From Candidatus Aminicenantes bacterium JdFR-78 (GTDB lineage: Bacteria > Acidobacteriota > Aminicenantia > JdFR-78): a DNA stretch of 50,288 nucleotides. The stretch is taken from the NCBI GenBank assembly GCA_002010665.1, contig MTON01000026.1, positions 1 to 50,288 on the forward strand, in the 5' to 3' direction. The notes beneath the pieces were generated by a model. It made no database searches, was not told the origin of the DNA, and saw only the letters and a list, made by a program, of their open reading frames with translations. Positions 7,944 through 50,114 of the stretch are shown here, piece by piece (the first letter of the stretch is position 1; every line of letters begins with the position of its first letter). A program made the translations under genes and the position numbers.

Positions 7944-10010
7944 TTATCGAGAGGGAACAAAAAATACTTTTCTTCTGTAAATATCAACCATAGCAAGAGT
8001 TACTTTTAATCTATCTCCGAGTTTATATATTTTCCCCTTTCTTTTTCCTTTTATTGCATAAGGTGAGATTTTATAATAATAATCGTCTCTCAAGTCACTG
8101 TAATGAATCATTCCTTCTATAAAATATTCATCAAGTTCTATTATCAAACCTTCTTTTGCAATATCCATAATAGTTCCTGTAAAAACCTCTCCAAGTTTTG
8201 ATCTGAGAAATCTGATAATTCTCCATTCAATTAAATCTCTTTCTGCATCTTCAGCATTCCTTTCTGTTTCAGAGCAATGTTCAGCGATTTTATCCAATGG
8301 AAGATTGTTTATTTTTTCTCCCTTTAAAGCCTTCTTTAAGATTCTGTGAACAACCAAATCAGGGTATCTTCTTATAGGAGATGTAAAATGAGTATAAAAT
8401 TCCTTTGCTAATCCAAAGTGTCCTGCATTTTGAACAGAATAATGAGCTAAAGGAAGGGATTTCAATATTTTTAATGAAACAAATTTCTCTTCTGGTTTTC
8501 CTTGGACTTTATAAATAATTTTTTGAAGGTCAAAAGAGGTGAGGGGTTTTTTCCCATTTTGCAATAGGCCTAAATTTTGCAGAAGTTTCTTTAATTTATC
8601 AAGCTTAAGTTTTTCCGGGCTTTCATGAACACGGAATAGCAGAGGATAATCGTTCCCTGCAAGAAAGGATGCTACTGTTTCATTAGCAGCGAGCATAAAT
8701 TCTTCTATAATCTGGTGAGCCTCATTCTGTTCAAAGCGTCCAATAGCGTGCAATGTTCCATTTCTATATATGAGTTCAGGTTCAACCAAGTCAAAATCTA
8801 AACTCCCCTCTTCTATCCTTTTTTCCCTCAAAATCTGAGCAAGTTCTCTCATTAAAAATAGAAGACTTACGAGATTTTTGTATTTTTTCTGCTCCTCCTT
8901 GTCGTTCTGTAAAATTTTGAAAACAGAATTGTAGGTCATCCGAGCATAACTTCTAATTATTGAGGGGGTAAATCTATAATTTAATATTTCACCTTGCTCA
9001 TTGATTTCCATTAATACAGAAAATGTCAATCTGTCTTTACCTGGTTTCAAACTGCAGACCTGATTTGAAAGTCTCTCAGGAAGCATTGGAAGAACCTTAT
9101 CAGGAAAATAGACACTATTTCCTCTTCTATAAGCTTCTTTGTCTAAATTAGACCCCTGTTTTACAAAATGTGATACATCTGCTATATGAACTCCCAGTAA
9201 ATAATTGCCATTTGAAAGCTTTTCTAAACTCACAGCATCATCGAAGTCTCTTGCATCTTCTCCATCAATTGTAATTACAATTTTATTTCTAAAGTCCTCC
9301 CTTCCTCTAATATCCTCTCTTTTTAATTTTAAAGGAATTTTATTTGCTTCCTGAATTACCTCTTGTGGAAAGTTTTCAGAAAGAGAATACTGAGAGGTAA
9401 TTACCTTTAAGTCAACTCCAGCTTCATCTGGATACCCAAGTACATCAGTAACTTTACCCCTTAATCCCTCGGTTAATTCAACTTCAACTATCATACCCGG
9501 CATTGGATTAAAAGGTGAGATTTTATCAAGGATTATTTCCTTTGAATTCTTGAAGTCAATTGGAATTAAGAAGTTTCTATTTAATTTCCTCTCAAAATAT
9601 CCATATATTTTTTCATTTTTCCTTTTTATTACTTTAATTATCTTACCTTCGTTTTTTCCACCTTTTCTTTTTCTTGTGTAAATTACCTCAACCAAATCTC
9701 CGTTTAGAGCATCCTTTGTTTTGGTAGGAGGTATAAATATATCATCTAAAAGTTTATTTTCTGGAACAACGAATCCATAACCATTTGGATTGGATACATA
9801 TTTTCCTGTTAAGAGACCTCTATTTTCTGGAAGATAAAATCTATTGCGGGTCGCCTTCAATATACCTTCTTTAACCATTTCCTTAAGTGTCCTTTTAAGT
9901 TTCGATTTTTCTCTGGGTGAGAGATTAAGTTTCTTCTCAAGCTGTTTTTTAGACGCACTTTTCCCATAAGATTCAAAAAATTCAATAATTTTTCGTTTTA
10001 TACTATTCAT
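7944..10010 (-). CDS. rnr: Ribonuclease R (3'-5' exoribonuclease)
   Basis: About 688 residues with the RNase II/R order: N-terminal helix-turn-helix (1-65), cold-shock domains, the catalytic RNB domain with the acidic cluster DGEDARDFDDAVSLE near 250-265, and a C-terminal S1 domain (from VFTGTIMDIAKEG). It degrades structured RNA in the cytosol. A TTG at 10013 precedes the ATG at 10010; I choose the ATG because the -10 box at 10018-10023 ends 7 bases before it, so transcription should start on or next to that ATG. It heads the rnr-pgi-selB-like operon. Confidence 0.95.
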   Translation of the reverse strand: MNSIKRKIIEFFESYGKSASKKQLEKKLNLSPREKSKLKRTLKEMVKEGILKATRNRFYLPENRGLLTGKYVSNPNGYGFVVPENKLLDDIFIPPTKTKDALNGDLVEVIYTRKRKGGKNEGKIIKVIKRKNEKIYGYFERKLNRNFLIPIDFKNSKEIILDKISPFNPMPGMIVEVELTEGLRGKVTDVLGYPDEAGVDLKVITSQYSLSENFPQEVIQEANKIPLKLKREDIRGREDFRNKIVITIDGEDARDFDDAVSLEKLSNGNYLLGVHIADVSHFVKQGSNLDKEAYRRGNSVYFPDKVLPMLPERLSNQVCSLKPGKDRLTFSVLMEINEQGEILNYRFTPSIIRSYARMTYNSVFKILQNDKEEQKKYKNLVSLLFLMRELAQILREKRIEEGSLDFDLVEPELIYRNGTLHAIGRFEQNEAHQIIEEFMLAANETVASFLAGNDYPLLFRVHESPEKLKLDKLKKLLQNLGLLQNGKKPLTSFDLQKIIYKVQGKPEEKFVSLKILKSLPLAHYSVQNAGHFGLAKEFYTHFTSPIRRYPDLVVHRILKKALKGEKINNLPLDKIAEHCSETERNAEDAERDLIEWRIIRFLRSKLGEVFTGTIMDIAKEGLIIELDEYFIEGMIHYSDLRDDYYYKISPYAIKGKRKGKIYKLGDRLKVTLAMVDIYRRKVFFVPSR

Positions 10011-10017
10011 CAATCTA

Positions 10018-10047
10018 ATGATATCGTATGAATCGGGTTAAAGTCAA
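10018..10047 (-). promoter_or_regulatory. Leaderless-type promoter of rnr
   Basis: Read on the minus strand: TTGACT (10047-10042), 18-base spacer, TATCAT (10023-10018), then 7 bases to the ATG at 10010. No Shine-Dalgarno can fit, so the mRNA is probably leaderless. It sits just upstream of the divergent ppdK promoter. Confidence 0.6.
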
Positions 10048-10051
10048 ACTA

Positions 10052-10080
10052 TTGATTTTTCATATTATAGGATGTAATAT
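10052..10080 (+). promoter_or_regulatory. Promoter of ppdK
   Basis: TTGATT (10052-10057), 17-base spacer, TAATAT (10075-10080). The transcript would carry a leader of about 29 nt with a strong Shine-Dalgarno (GAGGAGG, 10104-10110) before the ATG at 10116, in contrast with the leaderless rnr promoter facing away from it. Confidence 0.6.
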
Positions 10081-10115
10081 ATACTGTTTGTATTTCATAG
10101 CTTGAGGAGGGCAAA

Positions 10116-12830
10116 ATGAAGAAAAAGTATGTATATTTCTTTGGACCTGGTGGAGCTGAAGGGAATAAGGATATGAAGGATATTCTTGGGGGAAAGGGAT
10201 CTGGTTTAGCAGAAATGACAAATGCTGGACTTCCTGTGCCTCCTGGTTTTACTATTTCAACAGAAGTTTGCAATATTTTCTATCAGAATGATGAAAAAGT
10301 TCCAGAGGAAGTAATGAAGGAGATTCTTGAAAATCTAAAGAAACTTGAGGAAGTGAATAACAAAAAATTTGGTGACAGAGAAAATCCCCTTCTTCTTTCA
10401 GTTCGTTCAGGTGCTAAATTTTCAATGCCTGGAATGATGGATACGATTTTAAATTTGGGTTTAAATGATGAAACTGTGGAAGGGCTTGCAAAGAAGACAG
10501 GTAATCGAAGATTTGCTCTTGATTGTTACAGAAGATTCATACACATGTTCGGGGATGTTGTTCTTGGTATACCAAAGCAAAAATTTGAAGAGATTCTTTC
10601 GAAAATCAGGAAAGAGGCTGGAGTTAAGTATGACTACGAATTAGATGAGAAACATCTTGAGAAATTGATTTCTGAATATAAGAAACTGGTGAAGAAAGAA
10701 AGCGGGAAAGACTTTCCCCAAGATGTTTTCGTTCAATTAAAAATGGCAATTGAAGCAGTCTTTAAATCATGGAATAATCCAAGAGCAATAGTATATAGGA
10801 AATTAAATAATATACCTCATAATTTAGGAACAGCAGTAAATATTCAAACAATGGTATTTGGAAATTATGGTCCCACTTCTGGGACAGGGGTTGGTTTCAC
10901 AAGAAATCCAGCAACCGGAGAGAAGGAATTTTATGGAGAATTCCTTTTAAATGCACAAGGTGAGGATGTAGTTGCTGGAGTCAGAACCCCAATGCCTTTA
11001 ACTAAGCTTAAGGAAGTTCTTCCAGAGGTATATGACCAATTAAAAGAAATTACAGATAGACTGGAGCGTCATTATAGAGATGTTCAGGACTTTGAGTTTA
11101 CAATTCAAGAAGGAAAATTATATATGTTACAGACAAGAAGCGGAAAGAGAACAGGTATAGCAGCTGTTAAAATTGCAGTGGACATGGTTGAAGAAGGAAT
11201 AATAACAGAGGAGGAAGCACTTGAACTCGTTGAGCCCCAGGCTTTAGATCAGTTGCTTCACCCTGTTTTTGACCCAAAGGAAAAGGAAAAATATCCTGCT
11301 GTTGCTAAAGGACTTGCAGCCTCACCAGGTGCAGCTACAGGTCAGGTTGTCTTCACAGCAGAAGATGCTGTTAAATGGGTAAATGATAAGAAAAGAGTTA
11401 TTCTTGTTAGATCAGAAACCTCGCCTGATGATATTCATGGAATGAGTGTTTCGCAGGGAATTTTAACTGCAGTTGGAGGTATGACTTCCCATGCTGCAAT
11501 TGTAGGTCGTCAAATGGGTAAGCCATCTGTTGTTGGATGTGGTGCTTTAAGAATTAATGAGGAACAAAAGTATTTTGAGGTAAATGGGAAGATGGTAAAA
11601 GAAGGAGACTGGATTTCAATTGATGGAACTACAGGAGAAGTAATATTAGCCCATGTGCCAACAAAGCCTTCAGAAATAATACAGGTAATAGAGGGAACAA
11701 TTCCTCCAGAGAAATCTCAATTATATCAATATTTCACTAAATTGCTTTCCTGGGCTGATAAGGTGAGAAGACTTAGAGTAAGAGCTAATGCAGATACTCC
11801 TCGTGATGCAAGAATTGCTTATTCACTTGGGGCAGAAGGAATTGGATTGTGCAGAACAGAGCACATGTTTTTTGCAGAAGACAGGCTTCCTTACATGAAA
11901 GAGATGATATTGAGTACATCTGAGGAAGAAAGGAGGAAAGCTCTTGAAAAACTGCTTCCTTTGCAGAGGGAGGATTTTTATCAGTTATTTAAAGAAATGA
12001 AGGGTTATCCTGTGACAATTCGAACACTTGACCCACCCCTTCACGAATTCTTGCCCTCAAAAGAAGATTTAAGGGTGGAGATCACAACTTTAAAACTCCA
12101 GGATCCAGAAAAGAATAAAAAGAAAATTGAAGAGCTTGAAAAATTACTTCATAGAGTTGAAGCACTTTTTGAGTTCAATCCAATGCTCGGTCATAGAGGT
12201 TGCAGATTAGGAATAACCTATCCTGAAATTACAGAACTTCAGGCTCGAGCGATTTTTGAGGCAGCGTGTAGACTTGCAAAAGAAGGTGGAAAGGTAATTC
12301 CAGAAATAATGATTCCTTTGGTTGGACACGTCAATGAGTTGGCTCACCAAAAGGAGATAGTGGAAAGAGTTGGTGAAGAGGTAATGAAGAAATATGGAGT
12401 AAAGGTGGATTATACTGTTGGTACAATGATTGAGATTCCACGAGCTGCAATTACAGCAGATAAAGTAGCTGAAGAAGCTCAATTCTTCTCATTTGGAACA
12501 AATGATTTAACTCAAACAGTTTTCGGTATTTCTCGTGATGATGCAGGAAAATTCTTAGTTGCATATCTTGAAAAAGGTATATGGGAAAAGGATCCATTTG
12601 AAACAATAGACCAGGATGGTGTTGGTGAGGTAATGAAAATAGCAGTTGAAAAGGGAAGGAAAACAAGACCTGATTTGAAAATTGGAATTTGTGGAGAGCA
12701 TGGTGGAGAACCCCTATCTGTTGAATTCTGTCATAAAATCGGTTTAGATTATGTAAGCTGTTCACCTTTCAGAATTCCAATTGCCCGTTTGGCTGCAGCA
12801 CAAGCAGCTCTAAAAGAAAAGAAAAAATAG
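10116..12830 (+). CDS. ppdK: Pyruvate, phosphate dikinase
   Basis: Converts pyruvate + ATP + phosphate to PEP + AMP + pyrophosphate, reversibly; in anaerobes it often runs toward pyruvate. The 904 residues show the full enzyme: nucleotide-binding N-terminal part (LGGKGSGLAEMTNAGLPVPP; SVRSGAKFSMPGMMDT), the phosphohistidine domain with GGMTSHAAIVGRQMG (His459), and the PEP/pyruvate barrel (GLCRTEHMFF, GTNDLTQ, and the GICGEHGGEP Cys loop near the end). Start is fixed by a strong Shine-Dalgarno. The PflX-like gene follows by 26 bp. Confidence 0.97.
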   Translation: MKKKYVYFFGPGGAEGNKDMKDILGGKGSGLAEMTNAGLPVPPGFTISTEVCNIFYQNDEKVPEEVMKEILENLKKLEEVNNKKFGDRENPLLLSVRSGAKFSMPGMMDTILNLGLNDETVEGLAKKTGNRRFALDCYRRFIHMFGDVVLGIPKQKFEEILSKIRKEAGVKYDYELDEKHLEKLISEYKKLVKKESGKDFPQDVFVQLKMAIEAVFKSWNNPRAIVYRKLNNIPHNLGTAVNIQTMVFGNYGPTSGTGVGFTRNPATGEKEFYGEFLLNAQGEDVVAGVRTPMPLTKLKEVLPEVYDQLKEITDRLERHYRDVQDFEFTIQEGKLYMLQTRSGKRTGIAAVKIAVDMVEEGIITEEEALELVEPQALDQLLHPVFDPKEKEKYPAVAKGLAASPGAATGQVVFTAEDAVKWVNDKKRVILVRSETSPDDIHGMSVSQGILTAVGGMTSHAAIVGRQMGKPSVVGCGALRINEEQKYFEVNGKMVKEGDWISIDGTTGEVILAHVPTKPSEIIQVIEGTIPPEKSQLYQYFTKLLSWADKVRRLRVRANADTPRDARIAYSLGAEGIGLCRTEHMFFAEDRLPYMKEMILSTSEEERRKALEKLLPLQREDFYQLFKEMKGYPVTIRTLDPPLHEFLPSKEDLRVEITTLKLQDPEKNKKKIEELEKLLHRVEALFEFNPMLGHRGCRLGITYPEITELQARAIFEAACRLAKEGGKVIPEIMIPLVGHVNELAHQKEIVERVGEEVMKKYGVKVDYTVGTMIEIPRAAITADKVAEEAQFFSFGTNDLTQTVFGISRDDAGKFLVAYLEKGIWEKDPFETIDQDGVGEVMKIAVEKGRKTRPDLKIGICGEHGGEPLSVEFCHKIGLDYVSCSPFRIPIARLAAAQAALKEKKK

Positions 12831-41270: not shown

Positions 41271-42458
41271 TTGAGAAATTTAGTTAAAACATCAAGATTC
41301 TTGATTGTTTTCATTTTTTTATTTGGATGTATTTTCCTCTATGGAGAGGAACCGCTTAATACTTTGAAAAACATAAGTTGCCAAATAGTAAATGGGAAAA
41401 TTGAAGTTATTGTAGAACTGGAAGGGAAATTTGAGTATGATGTATTTGAACTGTATGTTCCTCCTCGCTTAGTAATAGACATCTGGAAAATTCAGAATAT
41501 TGCGGTCAAGCCTGAAATTAAAGTAGCTGAGACTGGTGTTTTAAAAATAAGGGTAGGAGAGTATCAGCCAGAAGTTGCTCGTGTGGTTTTTGATTTACAA
41601 GAGCCTATCCCTTCATATAATGTTGAAAGAATAAAGAATGGAATTAAAGTCACATTTTTACTCAGAAAAATCCCAAAAAAGGTAAAAGAAATAAAGCCTG
41701 TTGAAGTTAAGAAAGTAGAATTACCTCCAAAAAAAATCGAGAAGAAAAAAGTTGTAAGAGAAATCCCGAAGAGAAAGATTGAAAGAAATTATTTTATTCA
41801 AATAAGAGGTGGTTTAAGTTTATTTTTAAAACCTGAGTTAACCAGCAGAAAAGATTTCGTGATTTACGGAGAAGATGGATTTATAAATGAAAATTATAAA
41901 TTTAAAACAAGTTTAATATTGTTTGATGTGAGTGGAGGCACATATTTTAATCTATTCCAGAAAACAATTAAAACAGGACTTGGATTTACATTATGGTCAA
42001 TTGGAAACGATGCAAGTTTTATTCTCTCAATTCCCCATCCTTTTATTTCAGATTCTCCTAGAGAAGTAAATTTTGACGATAAATTTAAAAATAATTTCTA
42101 TAATTTTTATGTTTATGGATTATATCCGATTTTTGAGAGAGATAATTTTAAAATTTGGACAGGATTAATTTTAGGATATGCAAATGGCAAAATGACCACG
42201 CTCGAGGATCTATCTTTTGAGGAAAAAGCTCCATTTACAAGTTCAGATATAACTATTACTTCAAAATCTTATGTTGAGGATAAAATATCAAATCTATGGG
42301 GCGGGTTTAAGGTAAATTTTGAATATCTTATTAATAAGAATTTCTCATTAATAATGGATACAAGATTAATTTACATGAATCCAAAAGTCACCAATTTGGG
42401 GAAGAGAGCTAATTACCTTCAGTGGCAGACGCATATTGGAATTCAATATAGTTTCTAA
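41271..42458 (+). CDS. AMIN-domain outer-membrane beta-barrel protein
   Basis: 395 residues, TTG start set by GAAGGAGG at a good distance. Signal-like start (FLIVFIFLFGCIFLYG), then an AMIN domain (about 40-130: VELEGKFEYDVFELYVPPRLVIDI, VLKIRVGEYQPEVARVVFDL), which binds peptidoglycan or glycans in secretins and amidases. A Lys/Pro-rich linker (about 132-170) leads to a beta-barrel-like region ending in HIGIQYSF with terminal Phe. It probably spans the periplasm, linking cell wall and outer membrane. Its last 50 bp overlap the end of the convergent glycosyltransferase gene. Confidence 0.8.
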   Translation: MRNLVKTSRFLIVFIFLFGCIFLYGEEPLNTLKNISCQIVNGKIEVIVELEGKFEYDVFELYVPPRLVIDIWKIQNIAVKPEIKVAETGVLKIRVGEYQPEVARVVFDLQEPIPSYNVERIKNGIKVTFLLRKIPKKVKEIKPVEVKKVELPPKKIEKKKVVREIPKRKIERNYFIQIRGGLSLFLKPELTSRKDFVIYGEDGFINENYKFKTSLILFDVSGGTYFNLFQKTIKTGLGFTLWSIGNDASFILSIPHPFISDSPREVNFDDKFKNNFYNFYVYGLYPIFERDNFKIWTGLILGYANGKMTTLEDLSFEEKAPFTSSDITITSKSYVEDKISNLWGGFKVNFEYLINKNFSLIMDTRLIYMNPKVTNLGKRANYLQWQTHIGIQYSF

Positions 42459-44820
42459 GATTTTTTAAAGGGAAGATAAAAGAATATTCCTCTGGCCCTC
42501 CACTCTGGTGGGGGAAATTTTTATCAAAATAATAATCATATCCGAGAGAGAGAATAAATTCTTCAGGAAGGAATGAAATTCTAAAAGACTTATTAATTGG
42601 GGCCTTTCGCTTAGATTCATAGGAGCCTATTTTCCCTTTAAAAACAATGAATTTTGAAATTTCTTTACCATCCAGAGTTTTTAGTTTAATCCATGGATTT
42701 AATACATAATCATTGCCAAGGGTTAGTTCCCCTCCATATATTCTGGTGATTAATTTAACTTTATTTCCAATTCGGATAATCTTTACAAATTGAAAATAGT
42801 CTTCTCCTCTTTTATTTGGAAATTTAAAATATAAATAAATTATTTTGAATTTCTTACTGGTATGAATTGATTTATCTATTTTTTCAATCAAAAGATACTC
42901 TTTTTCCAATTTTCCTTCTGGTTTGATAAGTAATGAAGGAGGAGAAAAATAATACTCATATCCAATTTTTATTTTTCCATTCATAAAAAGATTTCTGGTA
43001 TTGAATGAGTGAGAGAATAATAGATTTGATTTTATTTTATCTTTATATATTATGATTTTCTCTATTTCTTCTCCGTTTTCATCTAAAATCTTTATATAGA
43101 AATTTCTAACTTTTTCGTCCCTATTTATTAACTCTCCTATAAAACTTTCTGTTTTAATTTTCCATTCATTAGGAGAGGTTTTTCTAAAAATAATGGATTG
43201 AGAATATAGTTTGAAATTACCTGGGAAATGAAAATCAGGATATTTACTAAGTCTGTAAATTTTTATGGTTGGATTATGCAAATCTAATAAATAATCATCC
43301 CACTTTGGCTTAAAAGTTTTTATCAATAATGCATTTTTCTCTAAGGATTTATAAAACTTTGCATGGCGAGGAAATTCATCTGGTGCTTCTAGAAACCTTT
43401 TATACATTATGTCACTTACAATTATATATTCCACCTTTCTTCTGTGTAGCCATTCAAGGCTTACCTGAGAGAGACTGTGTCTATAAATTACTTTGTAATC
43501 TTCTCGAGATATGGGGGGACAGTACATTTCCAAAGCAATTTTCTTTCCTTTTGGAATGAATTTTTCTATCCATTCTTTAGCAACAGTTCGAGTATCTTTT
43601 TTAATTAGGCCGTAATTAAATTTATAAATTTTAACAATATCTGGAGAAATTAAAATCAGAAAAACAATTCCTAAGAAGAATGTTTCTTTTTTTCTCAAAA
43701 ATTTTAATTTAGTCTTCAATTTTTTAAATATAAAATCAAAAGCAAAAGCTGTAATAATAGCAAAAAAGGGTGCTGCTGGCAGGAAATATCTTACAGCGTA
43801 GGTTTTCCAATTACCAATTGTAAAAAATAAAAATAAAGGAAGTGAAAATAAAATAATTTCTTTTCTTTTTAAACGAATGATACCAAGTAAAATCCCTAAA
43901 AAGGCAAAATACTGTGATAAAATTCCTATGTTTCTTTTAAAACCATATTTTAGATAGAATATTAATGCTGATTGAGATGTAGATGTCCCATAATGACCAG
44001 CTTCATAGAGGTGTCTTGCCTGCCAATTAAAATCTCTCCAAAAGGTTGAAAAATCAAAAAATGCATAAGGAGTTCCTATAAAAAAACCGATCAGGAAAAA
44101 AAGAACAAAAAGAATTAATTTAAAATTAATAAATATTTTTATCAAGGATTCTCTTCTTTCTAAACTTGAAAACAGGTGAGCAAAAAATAAAGGGATAAAT
44201 AAAAGATGCCCACCATATTTTGTTGCCATTGCCAAACCAGCAAATAATCCCGCAAGCAAATAATATTTCAAATTTCCTTTTGAGTATATAAGCCAAATAA
44301 AATAAAAAGAAAGAACTAAAAAGAAAATCATTGGGACCACAGGCACCATACTATGGGATAATCTGTTATGTGTTAATGAGAAGATTAAAAATATGGAAGC
44401 AAATAAGCCAACTCTTTGATTGAATATTTTTTTGCCGATTAAATAAATTAATATTATTGTCCCAATACTAAATAAAGCGACTAAGAATCTTCCAGCAAGC
44501 ATGGGAATTGTGGGATTCATTTCAAACCAGTCTTTAAATTTAATTCCTTGAGGAATTCTTCCAATAATTTTTCCAAAAAAGAAAAGAATTTTCCAGGAGA
44601 TGAAAATTAAATATGTATGAAGTGAGGGGACATGAAAAAAATGAGGGTTAAGATCTCCACTAAAATATCCAATTGCAATTTTGGCAAATCTATTTTCGTC
44701 AACATGGTATAAATGTGGTAATCCCCATTTCAATCCACTAATTCTTACAATTACTGTGAGCAGAACCAGAAAAGGCAAAATTATTTTTTCTGAAAGATGA
44801 TTATTGAAATTTTTTACCAT
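42409..44820 (-). CDS. GT39/ArnT-like membrane glycosyltransferase with large C-terminal domain
   Basis: 803 residues. The first 400 or so carry about 12 hydrophobic helices and the GT-C signature (GLPHLYHVDENRFAKIAIGYF, acidic pair in the first loop), as in PMT/ArnT enzymes that move a sugar from a lipid donor to a protein or lipid A in the periplasm. From about residue 430 the chain is soluble: a short mixed domain, then about 330 residues that look beta-rich. That tail is unusually long for the family and I do not recognise it. The gene is alone on its strand with its own promoter, and its 3' end overlaps the AMIN gene. Confidence 0.85.
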   Translation of the reverse strand: MVKNFNNHLSEKIILPFLVLLTVIVRISGLKWGLPHLYHVDENRFAKIAIGYFSGDLNPHFFHVPSLHTYLIFISWKILFFFGKIIGRIPQGIKFKDWFEMNPTIPMLAGRFLVALFSIGTIILIYLIGKKIFNQRVGLFASIFLIFSLTHNRLSHSMVPVVPMIFFLVLSFYFIWLIYSKGNLKYYLLAGLFAGLAMATKYGGHLLFIPLFFAHLFSSLERRESLIKIFINFKLILFVLFFLIGFFIGTPYAFFDFSTFWRDFNWQARHLYEAGHYGTSTSQSALIFYLKYGFKRNIGILSQYFAFLGILLGIIRLKRKEIILFSLPLFLFFTIGNWKTYAVRYFLPAAPFFAIITAFAFDFIFKKLKTKLKFLRKKETFFLGIVFLILISPDIVKIYKFNYGLIKKDTRTVAKEWIEKFIPKGKKIALEMYCPPISREDYKVIYRHSLSQVSLEWLHRRKVEYIIVSDIMYKRFLEAPDEFPRHAKFYKSLEKNALLIKTFKPKWDDYLLDLHNPTIKIYRLSKYPDFHFPGNFKLYSQSIIFRKTSPNEWKIKTESFIGELINRDEKVRNFYIKILDENGEEIEKIIIYKDKIKSNLLFSHSFNTRNLFMNGKIKIGYEYYFSPPSLLIKPEGKLEKEYLLIEKIDKSIHTSKKFKIIYLYFKFPNKRGEDYFQFVKIIRIGNKVKLITRIYGGELTLGNDYVLNPWIKLKTLDGKEISKFIVFKGKIGSYESKRKAPINKSFRISFLPEEFILSLGYDYYFDKNFPHQSGGPEEYSFIFPLKNLRNYIEFQYASATEGN

Positions 44821-44887: not shown

Positions 44888-45292
44888 GTGGTGAAGCCAT
44901 TAAGAATATGGGATATAGGACATTCAAATAGAAATCTGGATGAATTCTTAAATTTATTGAAAAAAAATAATATTGAACTTCTAATAGATATTAGAAGATT
45001 TCCTTCATCTCAGAAATTTCCTCATTTTAATAAGGACAATTTAAAAATTAAACTCGAGAAATTCAAAATTCGTTATTTATGGCTTGGAGAACAGCTTGGA
45101 GGATTTAGAAAGGGAGGATATGAGAAGTGGTTAGAATCGAATGAGTTTAAAGAAGGTCTTAATACCTTGAAAGAGAACGCCCGAAAGGTAAGAACAGCAA
45201 TAATGTGTGCAGAAGGATACTTTATGCGATGTCACAGGCGATATATTATATTTCTACTTGAAAAAGAAGGGTGGGAAATAATTCATATTTGA
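44888..45292 (+). CDS. DUF488 family protein
   Basis: 134 residues matching DUF488: N-terminal IWDIGHSNRNLDEFLNLL, LLIDIRRFPSSQKFPHFN, YLWLGEQLGG and the C-terminal MCAEGYFMRCHRRYI with its conserved Cys/His/Arg. The biochemical role of this family is not well defined. GTG start at 44888 (a second in-frame GTG follows at 44891) with no Shine-Dalgarno; a -10-like TAAAAT (44876-44881) lies 6 bases before it, so it too may be leaderless. It is divergent from the glycosyltransferase gene and convergent with the cytochrome gene (4 bp gap). Confidence 0.85.
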   Translation: MVKPLRIWDIGHSNRNLDEFLNLLKKNNIELLIDIRRFPSSQKFPHFNKDNLKIKLEKFKIRYLWLGEQLGGFRKGGYEKWLESNEFKEGLNTLKENARKVRTAIMCAEGYFMRCHRRYIIFLLEKEGWEIIHI

Positions 45293-45296
45293 ATTA

Positions 45297-46523
45297 TTAT
45301 TTTTTGCTTATTTGTCTTATCTTCAGAAGAAGTGCGATTGCAAGAATAAAGATAAATATAAGGGTTATTATTAATCCTTTCCTTCTGAATTTGACTTCCT
45401 TTAAAGCAGAATTTCCAGCCTCAATGATTTCATCAAGCAACTTATTTCCATTTTTAAGTTTTTCTTCAATTTCTTTTATATTAAGTCCATGAATAAGGTC
45501 TCTTACTTGTATCAATATTGTATTAACCTCTCTCAACTTGAATCTTGGCTCACTAACTTCCACTCCTGATTTTTGTGCTTTATCCAGTAAAGTTTCTGCT
45601 AAATCAATTCTATTGAGGTAATTATTAAGTTTTTGTTTCAATAGTTTTGCAATATTATATGGCTTAGAATCCACCTCATGGCATTTAATACAAACTGCCT
45701 TTTCCCCTATTCCTAACATCTCATCAGTAGGAGGAAGGATCTTGTGATTTCCGTGGCAGGCTTCACACTCAGATAGTCCTAATTCATCAAAAGCAGTTTT
45801 ATGAGGGCTAGAGGAAAAAAGCTCACTTGAGCTTAAATGACACTGTCTGCATACATATGCAATTGAGGTAAGTTCAGGAGGTAATGCACCGTGATTTCCA
45901 TGACAGTCATTGCAAACAGGTGCGGATAGATCCTTTTTTTCATATAATGCTTTGGCATGTACACTTTCTCTGTAATCTTTTTCTTGATTTGCTGGGATTC
46001 CATATTCTTTCATGAGTTCTTTATTGGAGTGACAATTTCCACATGTTGAAGGTATGTTCCATGGGAAGGTTTTTGACTTGGGATTTATAGCTTTGCGAAT
46101 GCCGTGGACACCGTGGCAATCAGAACAGACAGCAACTTTTGTATCTCCTTTTCTTAAAAGTTTACCATGCTGACTCGTCCAGTATAATGATAGCTGATCC
46201 ACCCTTAAAGATGGATTGTATTTTCTCATATAATTTGGGTTAGAATGGCAAGAACCACAAAATTCAGGAATTTGATTTCTTGGAGGAGCTCCTTTAAAAG
46301 TCTTATCCTTTGCTAAATCTATGTCTTCTACAGATGGATTTCCTCCATGGCAGTCGTTACACTTCAAACCATATTCTCGATGAATATCATTTTCAAATAA
46401 TATTGCAGGCGCCTTAAGCTCATCCTCTAATTCCATGTGACATTTTATACAATTATTCTCTTCCCCACTTAAATTACCGCCTATCAATAATACAAAAAAT
46501 ATAAAAATTAATTTTCTTTTCAT
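45297..46523 (-). CDS. Nine-heme cytochrome c, C-terminally membrane-anchored
   Basis: 408 residues. Signal peptide (LIFIFFVLLIGGNLSG), then nine CxxCH heme motifs between about residues 24 and 285 (CIKCH, CNDCH, CGSCH, CSDCH, CGNCH, CNDCH, CRQCH, CEACH, CIKCH). A helical stretch follows, then one membrane helix (about 383-401, GLIITLIFIFILAIALLL). It lies on the periplasmic side, anchored at its C-terminus. It follows cytochrome b by 6 bp, so it most likely takes the place of cytochrome c1/f as electron acceptor of the bc complex. Start fixed by TAGGAGAAAATG. Confidence 0.92.
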   Translation of the reverse strand: MKRKLIFIFFVLLIGGNLSGEENNCIKCHMELEDELKAPAILFENDIHREYGLKCNDCHGGNPSVEDIDLAKDKTFKGAPPRNQIPEFCGSCHSNPNYMRKYNPSLRVDQLSLYWTSQHGKLLRKGDTKVAVCSDCHGVHGIRKAINPKSKTFPWNIPSTCGNCHSNKELMKEYGIPANQEKDYRESVHAKALYEKKDLSAPVCNDCHGNHGALPPELTSIAYVCRQCHLSSSELFSSSPHKTAFDELGLSECEACHGNHKILPPTDEMLGIGEKAVCIKCHEVDSKPYNIAKLLKQKLNNYLNRIDLAETLLDKAQKSGVEVSEPRFKLREVNTILIQVRDLIHGLNIKEIEEKLKNGNKLLDEIIEAGNSALKEVKFRRKGLIITLIFIFILAIALLLKIRQISKK

Positions 46524-46529
46524 TTTCTC

Positions 46530-47609
46530 CTATAGTTTAGGGAAAAAATAAGTAACTAAAGTCATTACAATAATGTAAATTAAAATTAGCAGTCCAATTA
46601 TAAAGAATAATTTACTCTTTTCCTCTTTCTGAGCTTTTTTGTCCAAAAATGGAATTAATAACCAGAAGAGGCCACCTATGAAGAACCCAAAAAGAGCTAA
46701 TTTTTCCCCCTCTATGAATAATATTTTAGAAGGAATTATCTTTAATGTTGTAAACATAAAAGTAAAATACCATTCGGGTTTAATCCCAGGAGGAGCTGAG
46801 GCAAATGGATCTGCCTTTTCACCAATTTCCCATGGGAAAAACACGCAAAGAATTCCTATTAAACCGAGAATTAATATCCAAGCTAAGAAATCCTTTAAAA
46901 CAAAGTTGGGAAAAAATGGAATTTCTTTTACTTCACGATCTGATAAGCCAATGGGCGTACTCATGCCAAGAGTCTGAACTAAAAGTAGATGAACTCCAAG
47001 AATTAAAACAGTAATAAAAGGGAGAACAGCCACATGTATCCAGAAAAAGCGGGGGAGAGTAGCATTTGAAATGACTTTTCCTCCAAGAAGGAAAGTTTTT
47101 AATTTTTCACCTATAATTGGAACAATCCCAACAATGTCTGTTCCGACTCGAGTTGCAAAGAAAGCAAGCTTATTCCATGGTAGGAGATATCCAGTAAAGC
47201 CGAAGGCTAAGAAAATCAAGAGCAGGAAAAAGCCAGTTACCCATGTAAGCTCTCTTGGAGGTCGATAGGCTCTTAGAAAAAATGTACTAAACATATGAAT
47301 GAAAATTGCACCAATTAATAAATTTGCTGACCAGCTGTGTACAGAACGGATAAGCCAGCCAAATTTTACCTGGCTCATTATATATTGTATACTCTCAAAA
47401 GCTGAGTCTGCTGAAGGAGTATAATATAATAGAAGAAGAATTCCTGTTATTACCTGAATTATAAACAGGAATAAACAGATTCCACCAAAATAATACCAGA
47501 AAGAATACTTGTGTTCTGGAACCTTTTTCTTTTTTGTAAGTTGAGCTAAATCTGAAATTTTAAAACGGTAATCAAAATATAGCCATATCTTTTCCCAAAA
47601 CGTTTTCAT
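46530..47609 (-). CDS. Cytochrome b of a bc-type quinol oxidase complex (b6 and subunit-IV parts fused)
   Basis: 359 residues, seven to eight membrane helices. The b6-like part has heme-ligand helices (RSVHSWSANLLIGAIFIHMF; WIHVAVLPFITVLILGVHLL). A subunit-IV-like part follows in the same chain with the quinol-oxidation motif PEWY in IKPEWYFTFMFTTLK. The position of the extra heme-c ligand of b6 (Cys in FYCLGG) is held by Tyr here (FWYYFGG), with a Cys four residues later. Encoded 1 bp after the Rieske gene, so both are subunits of one complex in the inner membrane. Confidence 0.93.
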   Translation of the reverse strand: MKTFWEKIWLYFDYRFKISDLAQLTKKKKVPEHKYSFWYYFGGICLFLFIIQVITGILLLLYYTPSADSAFESIQYIMSQVKFGWLIRSVHSWSANLLIGAIFIHMFSTFFLRAYRPPRELTWVTGFFLLLIFLAFGFTGYLLPWNKLAFFATRVGTDIVGIVPIIGEKLKTFLLGGKVISNATLPRFFWIHVAVLPFITVLILGVHLLLVQTLGMSTPIGLSDREVKEIPFFPNFVLKDFLAWILILGLIGILCVFFPWEIGEKADPFASAPPGIKPEWYFTFMFTTLKIIPSKILFIEGEKLALFGFFIGGLFWLLIPFLDKKAQKEEKSKLFFIIGLLILIYIIVMTLVTYFFPKL

Positions 47610-47610
47610 T

Positions 47611-48036
47611 TCAAGTTCTCTTTGAAACTAATATTTTCTCCCCTACAATTTCAACATTATAAGCTTCAAGTGGTCGTGGAGGTGGTCCAGATATCACATT
47701 TCCTTTTAAATCAAATCTTCCATTGTGACATGGACAGAAAATCGTTTCTGTATCTCCATCATAAGTAACAGTGCAAGAGAGATGTGTGCAAACTGCAGTA
47801 AATGCTTTTAATTCCCCTTCTTTTGTGTTAATCAATATTCCTGGAGAGGATCCAAATTTAAAGATTTTATATGTATTTGGAGCCAATTCATTGATTTTGC
47901 CAGCTACAACACTTTTTACAATAACTTCTGATTGTTTTGGGGGCCATATATATTTTAAGACAGGATATAGAAAAGTTATTATTGTTCCAGCTATTCCACC
48001 TCCTAAGAGAAAATCAATAAACCTTCTCCTCTTCAT
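47611..48036 (-). CDS. Rieske [2Fe-2S] protein
   Basis: 141 residues. A twin-arginine-type N-terminus (MKRRRFIDFLLGGG) and membrane helix (about 10-28) are followed by the Rieske domain: CTHLSC (first Cys-His loop, with the usual second Cys) and CPCHNGRFD (second loop) bind the cluster, ending GPPPRPLEAYNVEI. It takes one electron from quinol at the periplasmic face and passes it to the cytochrome c partner. First of three tightly packed genes (Rieske, cytochrome b, nonaheme cytochrome). Confidence 0.95.
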   Translation of the reverse strand: MKRRRFIDFLLGGGIAGTIITFLYPVLKYIWPPKQSEVIVKSVVAGKINELAPNTYKIFKFGSSPGILINTKEGELKAFTAVCTHLSCTVTYDGDTETIFCPCHNGRFDLKGNVISGPPPRPLEAYNVEIVGEKILVSKRT

Positions 48037-48122: not shown

Positions 48123-50114
48123 TCAATTAGCCTTTGGTTTTAAAATAAGATTTTCTAATTTCTTTAATTTTTCAGATAAATATTCATCCAGCATTAAGTA
48201 ATTATGTATTCCGTAGCTACCTTCTATTTCAATAGTTTGAAGTTCTCTTTTAGTTTTATTAATAAGCTTGCGGTTTTCTATATATATTGAAGATTTTTTC
48301 AACTTGTTAATCAAGTTTTTAATTTTGGATATTTTTTCCTTTATTGTCTTTTGCCATTCCACCATCATTTCATCATAACCTTCTTCATGACATTCAAGAC
48401 ATTTATCTTTTGATGGTTTTATCACCTGATTTTGTCCATTTAAATGGCAATCCTTGCATTCAACACCAGCATCAAACATAACATCTGGTGTAGCATTTTT
48501 ATAATCAACAATTTTTCCAGTATATAATTTTTTCTGGAGATTATGGCAGTTTGCACATTCTTTTTTAGTATTTAAATGATGGCATTTTGCACATTCTTTT
48601 TTTGAAAGAATAAATTCTCCATGCTGGCGAACATTTGAATGACATTTAGAGCATTTTAAATCTCTTTCAAGAATATGTCTTCCATGAGAGAATGTAGAAC
48701 CATAGACATTAACAGAGATTTCCTCTATGCCAGTATGACATGTAGCACATTCAGAAGGAATCTTTTCTTCTTTTACTATAAATTTTTCGGGTTCATAAGA
48801 AATTCCAGCTTCTTTTAATGCAGTAATAAGATTATTGTATGCTGCTGATAATAATTGTTCTGCATACTGAACATTATGGACTCCTTTACCCTGTTCGACA
48901 ATATCAATGTTAAATGTAGCGTCTTCCAGTAATTTCTTTATTTTTTCTTTATCTCCATTTTTAGATTGTTTGATTTTTTGACTTATATTTTTGTAAATTA
49001 ATTTAATTTTATTTAATTTTTTTTCTGTTGCTTTCTCCCATTCCCATAAAATTCTTGAAAATCCCTCTCCATGACAGGTCTCACAGGCTTCCGGAGAGGA
49101 GATATAGGTTCGTCCCTTTATTAACTTCCCCCCTTTATCCTCATGAAATATATGACAACCCTTACAGCTTAGTCCTTTTTCAAACATAATATTTGGTATT
49201 CGCTCCAAGTGTCCTTTTCCTCCTTCTCCTGAAAATAAAATTCTTTGAGCCTGGTGATGTTTTGGGTGGCATGTTTGACAATCTACAAGTGCTTCAATTT
49301 TCCTAACTATTTTATGTTGAATTGAAAGATGGCACTGCAAGCATTCTATTTTATGTTCACTTATATGCGTTTTATGCATTAAATCAGTATCATCATATTT
49401 GTTTAACCTGTCGACTTCCCAGTGGCATTTAAAGCAATTTTCCCTTGGAACTGTTCCATCCCCCATGACCACATAACTATGGCATTTATTACATGAAAAT
49501 CCATTTTTGAAAACCGAAGTGTGATTGAATCTAGCTTCCTTTGATACAAGGAATTTTTTCTCATGACAATGGGAACAATCTGAGATTCGAGGGTAATGCT
49601 CGCTTTTCTTAAAATGGCAAATAAAACAAGTACTTTCAGTTACTGTGATATGTTCTCCTTGCACAATCTGTGAATGGCAGCTTGTGCATCTGAGTTTTTT
49701 CCCTCTTTTTAAATCAGTCAAATGAATTTTATGGTCGAAAATTACTTTTTTAAATTTAACCCTTCCTTGCAAGAGTCTCTTTTCATGACATCCCTCTCTA
49801 AGGCAGCTTTCATCTGGAATTTCAGCCCATGGTTTTGATTTTAAATATAATTTTGTCCAGTATTTGCCAATCTGTAATAAGCCTAAAATTTTACTGTTTA
49901 ATTTTGATTTAAAACCAGGGGGATAATGACAGGTGGCACATTCAACGTTGTTGTGCTTTGAAGTTTGCCAACTTCTGTAAAAAGGTTTCATATAGTGACA
50001 TGTGGAACAGAATTTAGAATGAGAGGTATATTCTGCTGCTCCTCCAAGTAATAATAAAATTAAAAATACGAACGAAAGCAAAAAAATTATTCTTTTTTTC
50101 TTCTTTTTATTCAT
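48123..50114 (-). CDS. Large NapC/NirT-like multiheme cytochrome c (17 CxxCH plus one CX4CH)
   Basis: 663 residues. An N-terminal membrane anchor (IIFLLSFVFLILLLLGGAAEY) is followed by a NapC/NirT-like start (FCSTCHYMKPFYRSWQTSKH ... ECATCHYPPG). I count 17 CxxCH motifs and one CLREGCH (CX4CH) near residue 104. Two halves repeat each other: MFEKGLSCKGCH with CETCHGEGF and a helical Trp stretch, against MFDAGVECKDCH with CLECHEEGY and a similar helix, each followed by a GxHN motif (GVHN near 400, GIHN near 636). It is periplasmic, likely receives electrons from quinol or the bc complex and passes them on. Confidence 0.92.
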   Translation of the reverse strand: MNKKKKKRIIFLLSFVFLILLLLGGAAEYTSHSKFCSTCHYMKPFYRSWQTSKHNNVECATCHYPPGFKSKLNSKILGLLQIGKYWTKLYLKSKPWAEIPDESCLREGCHEKRLLQGRVKFKKVIFDHKIHLTDLKRGKKLRCTSCHSQIVQGEHITVTESTCFICHFKKSEHYPRISDCSHCHEKKFLVSKEARFNHTSVFKNGFSCNKCHSYVVMGDGTVPRENCFKCHWEVDRLNKYDDTDLMHKTHISEHKIECLQCHLSIQHKIVRKIEALVDCQTCHPKHHQAQRILFSGEGGKGHLERIPNIMFEKGLSCKGCHIFHEDKGGKLIKGRTYISSPEACETCHGEGFSRILWEWEKATEKKLNKIKLIYKNISQKIKQSKNGDKEKIKKLLEDATFNIDIVEQGKGVHNVQYAEQLLSAAYNNLITALKEAGISYEPEKFIVKEEKIPSECATCHTGIEEISVNVYGSTFSHGRHILERDLKCSKCHSNVRQHGEFILSKKECAKCHHLNTKKECANCHNLQKKLYTGKIVDYKNATPDVMFDAGVECKDCHLNGQNQVIKPSKDKCLECHEEGYDEMMVEWQKTIKEKISKIKNLINKLKKSSIYIENRKLINKTKRELQTIEIEGSYGIHNYLMLDEYLSEKLKKLENLILKPKAN

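Follow-up and report, generated by a model that had tools for sequence, protein, structure and literature searches.

The 50,288-bp contig MTON01000026.1 of Candidatus Aminicenantes bacterium JdFR-78, which was analyzed in its entirety and is called the window here, carries adjoining genes for a Rieske iron-sulfur protein, a cytochrome b and a c-type cytochrome with nine CxxCH heme-binding motifs (the nonaheme cytochrome). Together, the three (the trio) very probably make up a menaquinol-oxidizing complex that operates a Q-cycle and in which the nonaheme cytochrome, anchored in the membrane by its C-terminus, serves instead of cytochrome c1 or f as the outlet for the Rieske electron. An initial annotation of the window had proposed that the nonaheme protein fills the place of c1 or f, and the proposal is supported by three observations: the gene order is conserved, the genome has no recognizable c1 or f gene, and in one genome the cytochrome b and the nonaheme protein are fused.

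The genes lie on the minus strand, as do all the features of the trio given below, in the order Rieske, cytochrome b and nonaheme, as read from the open reading frames of the window. The Rieske [2Fe-2S] protein (47611..48036; PF00355, 6.7e-16) has 141 residues and begins with a twin-arginine signal-anchor (MKRRRF). Cytochrome b (46530..47609) has 359 residues (PF00033 Cytochrome_B, 8.3e-53; PF00032 Cytochrom_B_C, 1.4e-08). The nonaheme cytochrome (45297..46523), which matches multiheme c Pfam families, has 408 residues comprising a signal peptide, the nine CxxCH motifs, a helical hairpin and a C-terminal transmembrane helix. The intergenic gaps are 1 bp between the Rieske and cytochrome b genes, and 6 bp between the cytochrome b and nonaheme genes. 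This packing had been described in the initial annotation, along with the nine heme motifs, the C-terminal anchor and the PEWY and Rieske motifs, and all of it is confirmed.

The Rieske protein has both motif types (CTHxxC and CPCHxG) of cytochrome bc1 complexes, CTHLSC at residues 83-88 (47773..47790) and CPCHNG at residues 101-106 (47719..47736), as translated. C83, H85 and C88 are invariant across 70 sequences. The closest NCBIfam model is that of the b6f iron-sulfur subunit (3e-24). In high-potential Rieske proteins, the potential is raised by a Ser and a Tyr. The second motif here reads CPCHNGRF, with Gly and Phe at the positions of that Ser and Tyr; in the family, Gly106 is kept in 68 of 70 sequences and position 108 is either Tyr (39 sequences) or Phe (31). 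Lack of the two residues suggests a low-potential chain, of the kind fed by menaquinol.

Cytochrome b combines a b6-like N-terminal half with a subunit-IV-like C-terminal half in a single chain, not split as in b6f complexes. The predicted heme b ligands, H91/H105/H192/H207, have b6-type spacing (13 and 14 residues between the His), and the quinol-oxidation-site motif PEWY occupies residues 278-281 (46767..46778, from the translation). PEWY (or PEWF) and the four ligands are kept in nearly all relatives. At the position aligned with b6 Cys35, the Cys that binds heme ci/cn, the protein has Tyr40; in the relatives this residue is usually Tyr or Phe, and Cys does not occur there. The membrane subunit is a cytochrome b and not NrfD, unlike in Alternative complex III.

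The nonaheme protein starts with an N-terminal signal peptide, as read from its sequence, and the CxxCH motifs begin at residues 25, 55, 89, 133, 161, 204, 225, 253 and 278, which delimit a nine-heme domain (residues 25-282, 45678..46451). In 20,000 composition-matched shuffles, the number of CxxCH never exceeded two. The domain is followed by a helical region (residues 287-378, 45390..45665, from an AlphaFold2 model) and, by hydropathy, by a hydrophobic helix at about residues 379-405, with the transmembrane anchor placed at about residues 379-403 (45315..45389). The model has a predicted local distance difference test score (pLDDT) of 93 and places helices at 287-318, 324-343 and 349-407. 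The CxxCH count is exactly nine in 74 of 78 family members, and the C-terminal membrane helix is present in 77 of 78. Cytochromes c1 and f are likewise anchored by a C-terminal membrane helix.

Outside the CxxCH motifs, eight His are conserved in the family (48, 119, 140, 189, 211, 241, 260 and 345), as are Met99 and Met171, and all are candidate distal ligands. With eight extra conserved His for nine hemes, at least one heme may be His/Met-ligated or open. H345, in the helical region, is invariant in 66 sequences and sits just before the membrane helix; it may ligate a membrane-proximal heme that would meet the Rieske protein. The top Foldseek match of the model in the PDB is the Kuenenia hydroxylamine oxidoreductase 4n4j (probability 1.00, template modeling (TM) score 0.42, E 6.5e-3), which may point to a distant octaheme-type fold. 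This nearest structural neighbor of the model differs from the nonaheme protein by the number of hemes and by the transmembrane anchor of the latter. The structure search found no close relative with a solved structure, and members of the family match only generic multiheme families of Pfam.

Conservation of the trio was studied starting from the nonaheme protein alone. Among 40 relatives, there are three orthologous operons. A nonaheme-profile scan of named genomes gave 80 loci with 78 full-length homologues, which come from Aminicenantes, other Acidobacteriota, KSB1, Calditrichota, Zixibacteria, Neomarinimicrobiota, Latescibacterota, Tectomicrobia, Gemmatimonadota, Eisenbacteria, NC10 and a few doubtful bins. 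A cytochrome b gene lies directly upstream on the same strand in 68 of the 78, and a Rieske gene precedes it in 61; where the order departs from this, the cause is mostly a contig end, masked bases or a minor rearrangement. In another sample, drawn from the Acidobacteriota, cytochrome b is adjacent in 29/29 top loci and Rieske in 28/29. Since the search used only the nonaheme protein, the association was not built into it, and since the order persists across phyla, the arrangement is not due to chance. The conserved order that the initial annotation had proposed to look for in related genomes is thus found well beyond the Aminicenantes. The profile also matches 125 of 396 Acidobacteriota genomes, a figure that includes partial matches to longer paralogues (such as 19-heme b561 fusions) and is no measure of how common the trio is; at E <= 3.1e-116, there are matches in about 47 genomes (counted by eye). 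Pairwise distances among the Rieske, cytochrome b and nonaheme proteins are strongly correlated (r 0.80-0.83, against a permutation maximum of 0.16), in part because the genomes themselves share ancestry.

The two genes are joined physically in a Neomarinimicrobiota locus (L072, 7672-10230), where a single frame of 852 residues encodes both cytochrome b and the nonaheme protein, with extra hydrophobic segments between them. A second apparent fusion (L044) was discarded, its frame crossing masked bases; the frame of L072 is intact. Some loci carry further copies or genes. In genome G005, a tandem second Rieske-cytochrome b-nonaheme copy (L018, 8457-12484) has a cytochrome b that lacks both heme bH ligands (HRHN) and has PGWF for PEWY, and a second copy in L057 reads HRHH and PPWY. 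As read, neither copy would be capable of a normal Q-cycle. A membrane protein of the DUF2339 type, about 550 residues long, is often encoded after the nonaheme gene (L056, 9257-10933; L066, 10208-11887; L074, 10488-12149), and in some loci apparently between the cytochrome b and nonaheme genes. The Pfam match to DUF2339 is in L056, and the proteins of L066 and L074 are alike in length and start.

The JdFR-78 genome (2.53 Mb in 42 contigs) is 96.8% complete, so that about 3% may be missing. At the sensitivity of Pfam models, neither cytochrome c1 (PF02167) nor a monoheme class-I cytochrome c, including the CBB3 type (PF13442, PF00034), is found genome-wide. The sole match to cytochrome f (PF01333) was rejected: it is below the cut-off and lies in an RNA polymerase beta'-like gene without CxxCH. 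The claim that a monoheme c1 or f gene is lacking, made initially for the window, thus extends to the genome at that sensitivity. The CxxCH pattern occurs 235 times genome-wide and 36 times in a reversed control, and the dense clusters among the matches listed are multiheme genes on another contig (C10). Rieske and cytochrome b genes each occur twice in the genome. The second pair (L006, 8290-12856, contig C2) sits behind sdhC-sdhA-sdhB and is followed by a gene for a 98-residue membrane protein; the cluster has no c-type cytochrome. A c1 or f gene linked to a second such pair, which the initial annotation had named as evidence against its reading, is thus not seen. The order sdhB-(Rieske)-cytochrome b-small protein is repeated in the relatives L011, L013 and L014.

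Gene content and order, the motifs, their conservation and the linkage of cytochrome b to the nonaheme protein are observed; from them we infer the path of the electrons and its direction, the redox potentials and the final acceptor. The PEWY site would be where quinol is split. Of the two electrons, one would reach a second quinone via hemes bL and bH, and the other would go to the Rieske cluster and from there to a membrane-proximal heme of the nonaheme subunit. The heme chain of that subunit would then deliver it to periplasmic multiheme cytochromes. In the genome itself, the likeliest onward route would be an outer-membrane conduit of the MtrA/MtrB type, probably toward an extracellular acceptor.

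Several points weigh against this picture. Gene neighborhood is no proof of a stable complex, and it is presumed that the Rieske cluster comes within reach of a heme of the nonaheme protein. The fusion is known from one metagenome-assembled locus, the nonaheme gene is ahead of the Rieske gene in L107-L109, and another gene or stretch comes in between in L064, L065 and L077. The operon of the window has no adjoining Mtr genes, which are on another contig. The multiheme neighbors of the trio differ between phyla, so that electrons need not leave the cell in all of them. The nonaheme protein could instead be a separate partner, for instance a reductase or a periplasmic carrier, whose gene simply accompanies the operon; some other protein would then take the Rieske electron. 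The similarity of its model to hydroxylamine oxidoreductase, an enzyme fold, would suit such a role, as would the shortfall of conserved His relative to hemes, which leaves room for a Met-ligated or open heme. We nevertheless consider a separate partner unlikely: the membrane helix of the protein, its near-fixed place after cytochrome b, its nine hemes, its co-divergence with the other two proteins and its fusion to cytochrome b fit a subunit better, and no other acceptor gene is equally constant.

Upstream of the trio, 86 bp from the Rieske gene and on the same strand, is a gene for a multiheme protein of 663 residues with an N-terminal membrane anchor and a NapC/NrfH N-terminal domain (48123..50114; PF03264, 3.1e-08), which was outside the span considered in the initial annotation. 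Within the window, this gene probably heads the operon; as the window is the whole contig, the operon may extend past the contig end. The protein has 17 CxxCH, plus a CxxxxCH (CLREGCH) at residue 104, which is a CxxCH (CLRCH) in the G005 homologue, and it probably binds 18 hemes, judging from these motifs. The 17-heme gene is also upstream in two of the three orthologous operons, its orthologues preceding the Rieske gene in L016 and L017, and genes for CcsB-type cytochrome c biogenesis come before it in these two. PF03264 domains are known for quinol oxidation and the gene adjoins the trio in several Aminicenantes; conceivably, therefore, this protein is the real quinol oxidase that feeds the nonaheme cytochrome, with Rieske and cytochrome b in another role. 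We hold this to be very unlikely, because most of the other phyla with the trio lack this gene, whereas Rieske and cytochrome b are constant, and because cytochrome b retains PEWY and all of its heme ligands. Scans for promoters and terminators gave nothing above chance level. On the other side of the operon, past the nonaheme gene, there is an opposite-strand DUF488 gene and a gene for a PMT-type glycosyltransferase (42409-44820 and 44888-45292), with no more redox genes there.

Evidence on the onward route comes from Mtr-type genes. On contig C10 of the same genome, a DmsE/MtrA-type decaheme cytochrome (3.4e-108) adjoins an MtrB/GSU2204-type porin (1.2e-83). The region (L023, 4339-8347) encodes an 8-heme c554-like protein, an MtrA/GSU2203-type decaheme and an MtrB/GSU2204-type porin with one CxxCH of its own. 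Next to it is a gene (8595-11390) for a 19-heme protein, the periplasmic part of which is nonaheme-like and fused to a membrane domain like that of b561 and formate dehydrogenase gamma (CbcL/MtrH-like). Several loci have similar 19-heme genes close to the trio. Genes for a decaheme of the MtrA type and for a large porin come before Rieske-cytochrome b-nonaheme at eight Acidobacteriota loci (L049, L050, L051, L053, L058, L076, L084 and L095), mostly immediately. The porin of L049 has no Pfam match, and the first match of its model is MtrB of the solved Mtr complex (6r2q_B, E 1.5e-17). L050 also has an MtrB/PioB protein above the curated cut-off; two decaheme-porin pairs are present in this locus. 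A phmmer search with the porin of JdFR-78 itself gave no matches among the neighbors in these loci; the porins were found by profiles and by fold search. The initial annotation had also pictured the nonaheme protein as a multiheme wire that widens the outlet, a suggestion that gains weight from the MtrA/MtrB-like genes directly preceding the trio in relatives, and from the MtrA/MtrB-like pair elsewhere in the genome.

The same linkage could be taken to mean that the complex works mainly in reverse, with electrons from outside (from iron or a partner cell) entering through Mtr-type proteins and the nonaheme cytochrome, and the proton gradient driving quinone reduction. Several Acidobacteriota have MtrA/MtrB-type genes next to the trio, and relatives of the Mtr genes, those of the Mto and Pio types, act in iron oxidation. 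Such a role has been described for Mto (PMC8805035). Reverse operation is nonetheless quite unlikely. The Rieske motif without the potential-raising Ser and Tyr suggests a low-potential chain, no heme-copper oxidase was detected in the genome that could complete aerobic iron oxidation, and genes of complex I (chain 3, 20 kDa and 49 kDa subunits), which come directly after the trio in Zixibacteria (L082, 5684-8151), fit forward respiration. Elsewhere, the trio occurs with an NrfD-type module (L080) or with a molybdopterin oxidoreductase (L096). It looks like a general hub from quinol to multiheme cytochromes, with an output that varies by lineage.

The principle of a Rieske/cytochrome b complex with a multiheme c in place of c1 or f already has precedents in Geobacter, in anammox bacteria and in Methanoperedens, and the novelty of principle implied in the initial annotation was too strong. 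At the level of genes, the trio, a conserved cluster with no c1 or f, belongs to this class. The ext cluster of Geobacter (GSU2930-2937) has a Rieske protein (ExtO), a cytochrome b (ExtP), 10-, 12-, 5- and 4-heme cytochromes and a porin (ExtI), and is like the trio in having multiheme c and no c1 or f (PMC2825233, PMC5877670). However, ExtP is short and b6-like (23 kDa) with a separate ExtQ, whereas the cytochrome b of the window is one full-length chain. The Ext cytochromes also belong to other families, and no nonaheme subunit with a C-terminal helix is described there. By curated models (ExtM, ExtN), the nonaheme protein is not an Ext cytochrome; the NCBIfam ExtM model scores 19.3 bits against a cut-off of 800. 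In anammox bacteria (Kuste4569-4574 and Kustd1480-1485), cytochrome f is replaced by a hexa- or octaheme c anchored by a transmembrane helix, and one of the complexes includes a hydroxylamine oxidoreductase-like octaheme protein (PMC12954380). These complexes have a split b6/subunit IV, NAD(P) oxidoreductase subunits and a high-potential Rieske protein, in contrast to the single-chain cytochrome b, the lack of an adjoining NAD(P) module in the window and the low-potential-looking Rieske motif found here. In Methanoperedens, Rieske/cytochrome b genes are clustered with those of two pentaheme c cytochromes; this system is archaeal, its multiheme families are different and a c1/f-like gene is also reported in the cluster (PMC4683180). 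The Nap cluster of Caldithrix has Rieske and cytochrome b genes and no monoheme c1, but the proposed acceptor is the soluble tetraheme NapM and not an anchored nonaheme protein (PMC5317091).

As proposed for the trio, CymA, ImcH and CbcL/MtoC/MtrH pass electrons from quinol into periplasmic multihemes and porin-cytochrome conduits (PMC6295460), but none of them is a Rieske/cytochrome b complex. The quinol oxidases listed in a survey of extracellular transfer are of the CymA, ImcH and CbcL types, with Rieske unmentioned (PMC6295460). In Acidobacteriia, no quinone oxidoreductase was reported near mtrCAB (PMC8805035). The nonaheme family and its linkage to Mtr genes have apparently not been described before; no description of the subfamily or of its Mtr coupling was found in the open-licence literature, which is weak evidence of absence.

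A bc complex with a nine-heme c subunit would keep the Q-cycle and hand electrons straight to a multiheme route outward, whereas none of the known inner-membrane quinol oxidases of extracellular respiration (the CymA, ImcH and CbcL types) is a Rieske/cytochrome b enzyme. The trio also bears on the proposal of multihemes as early acceptors of Rieske electrons (Dibrova 2013, cited in PMC5317091). Tentatively, and with somewhat less than even confidence, we suggest that the complex may be an undescribed, energy-conserving quinol oxidase of extracellular electron transfer that feeds Mtr-type conduits in Acidobacteriota and many uncultured phyla, where it would replace the non-bifurcating enzymes of the CymA, ImcH and CbcL types.

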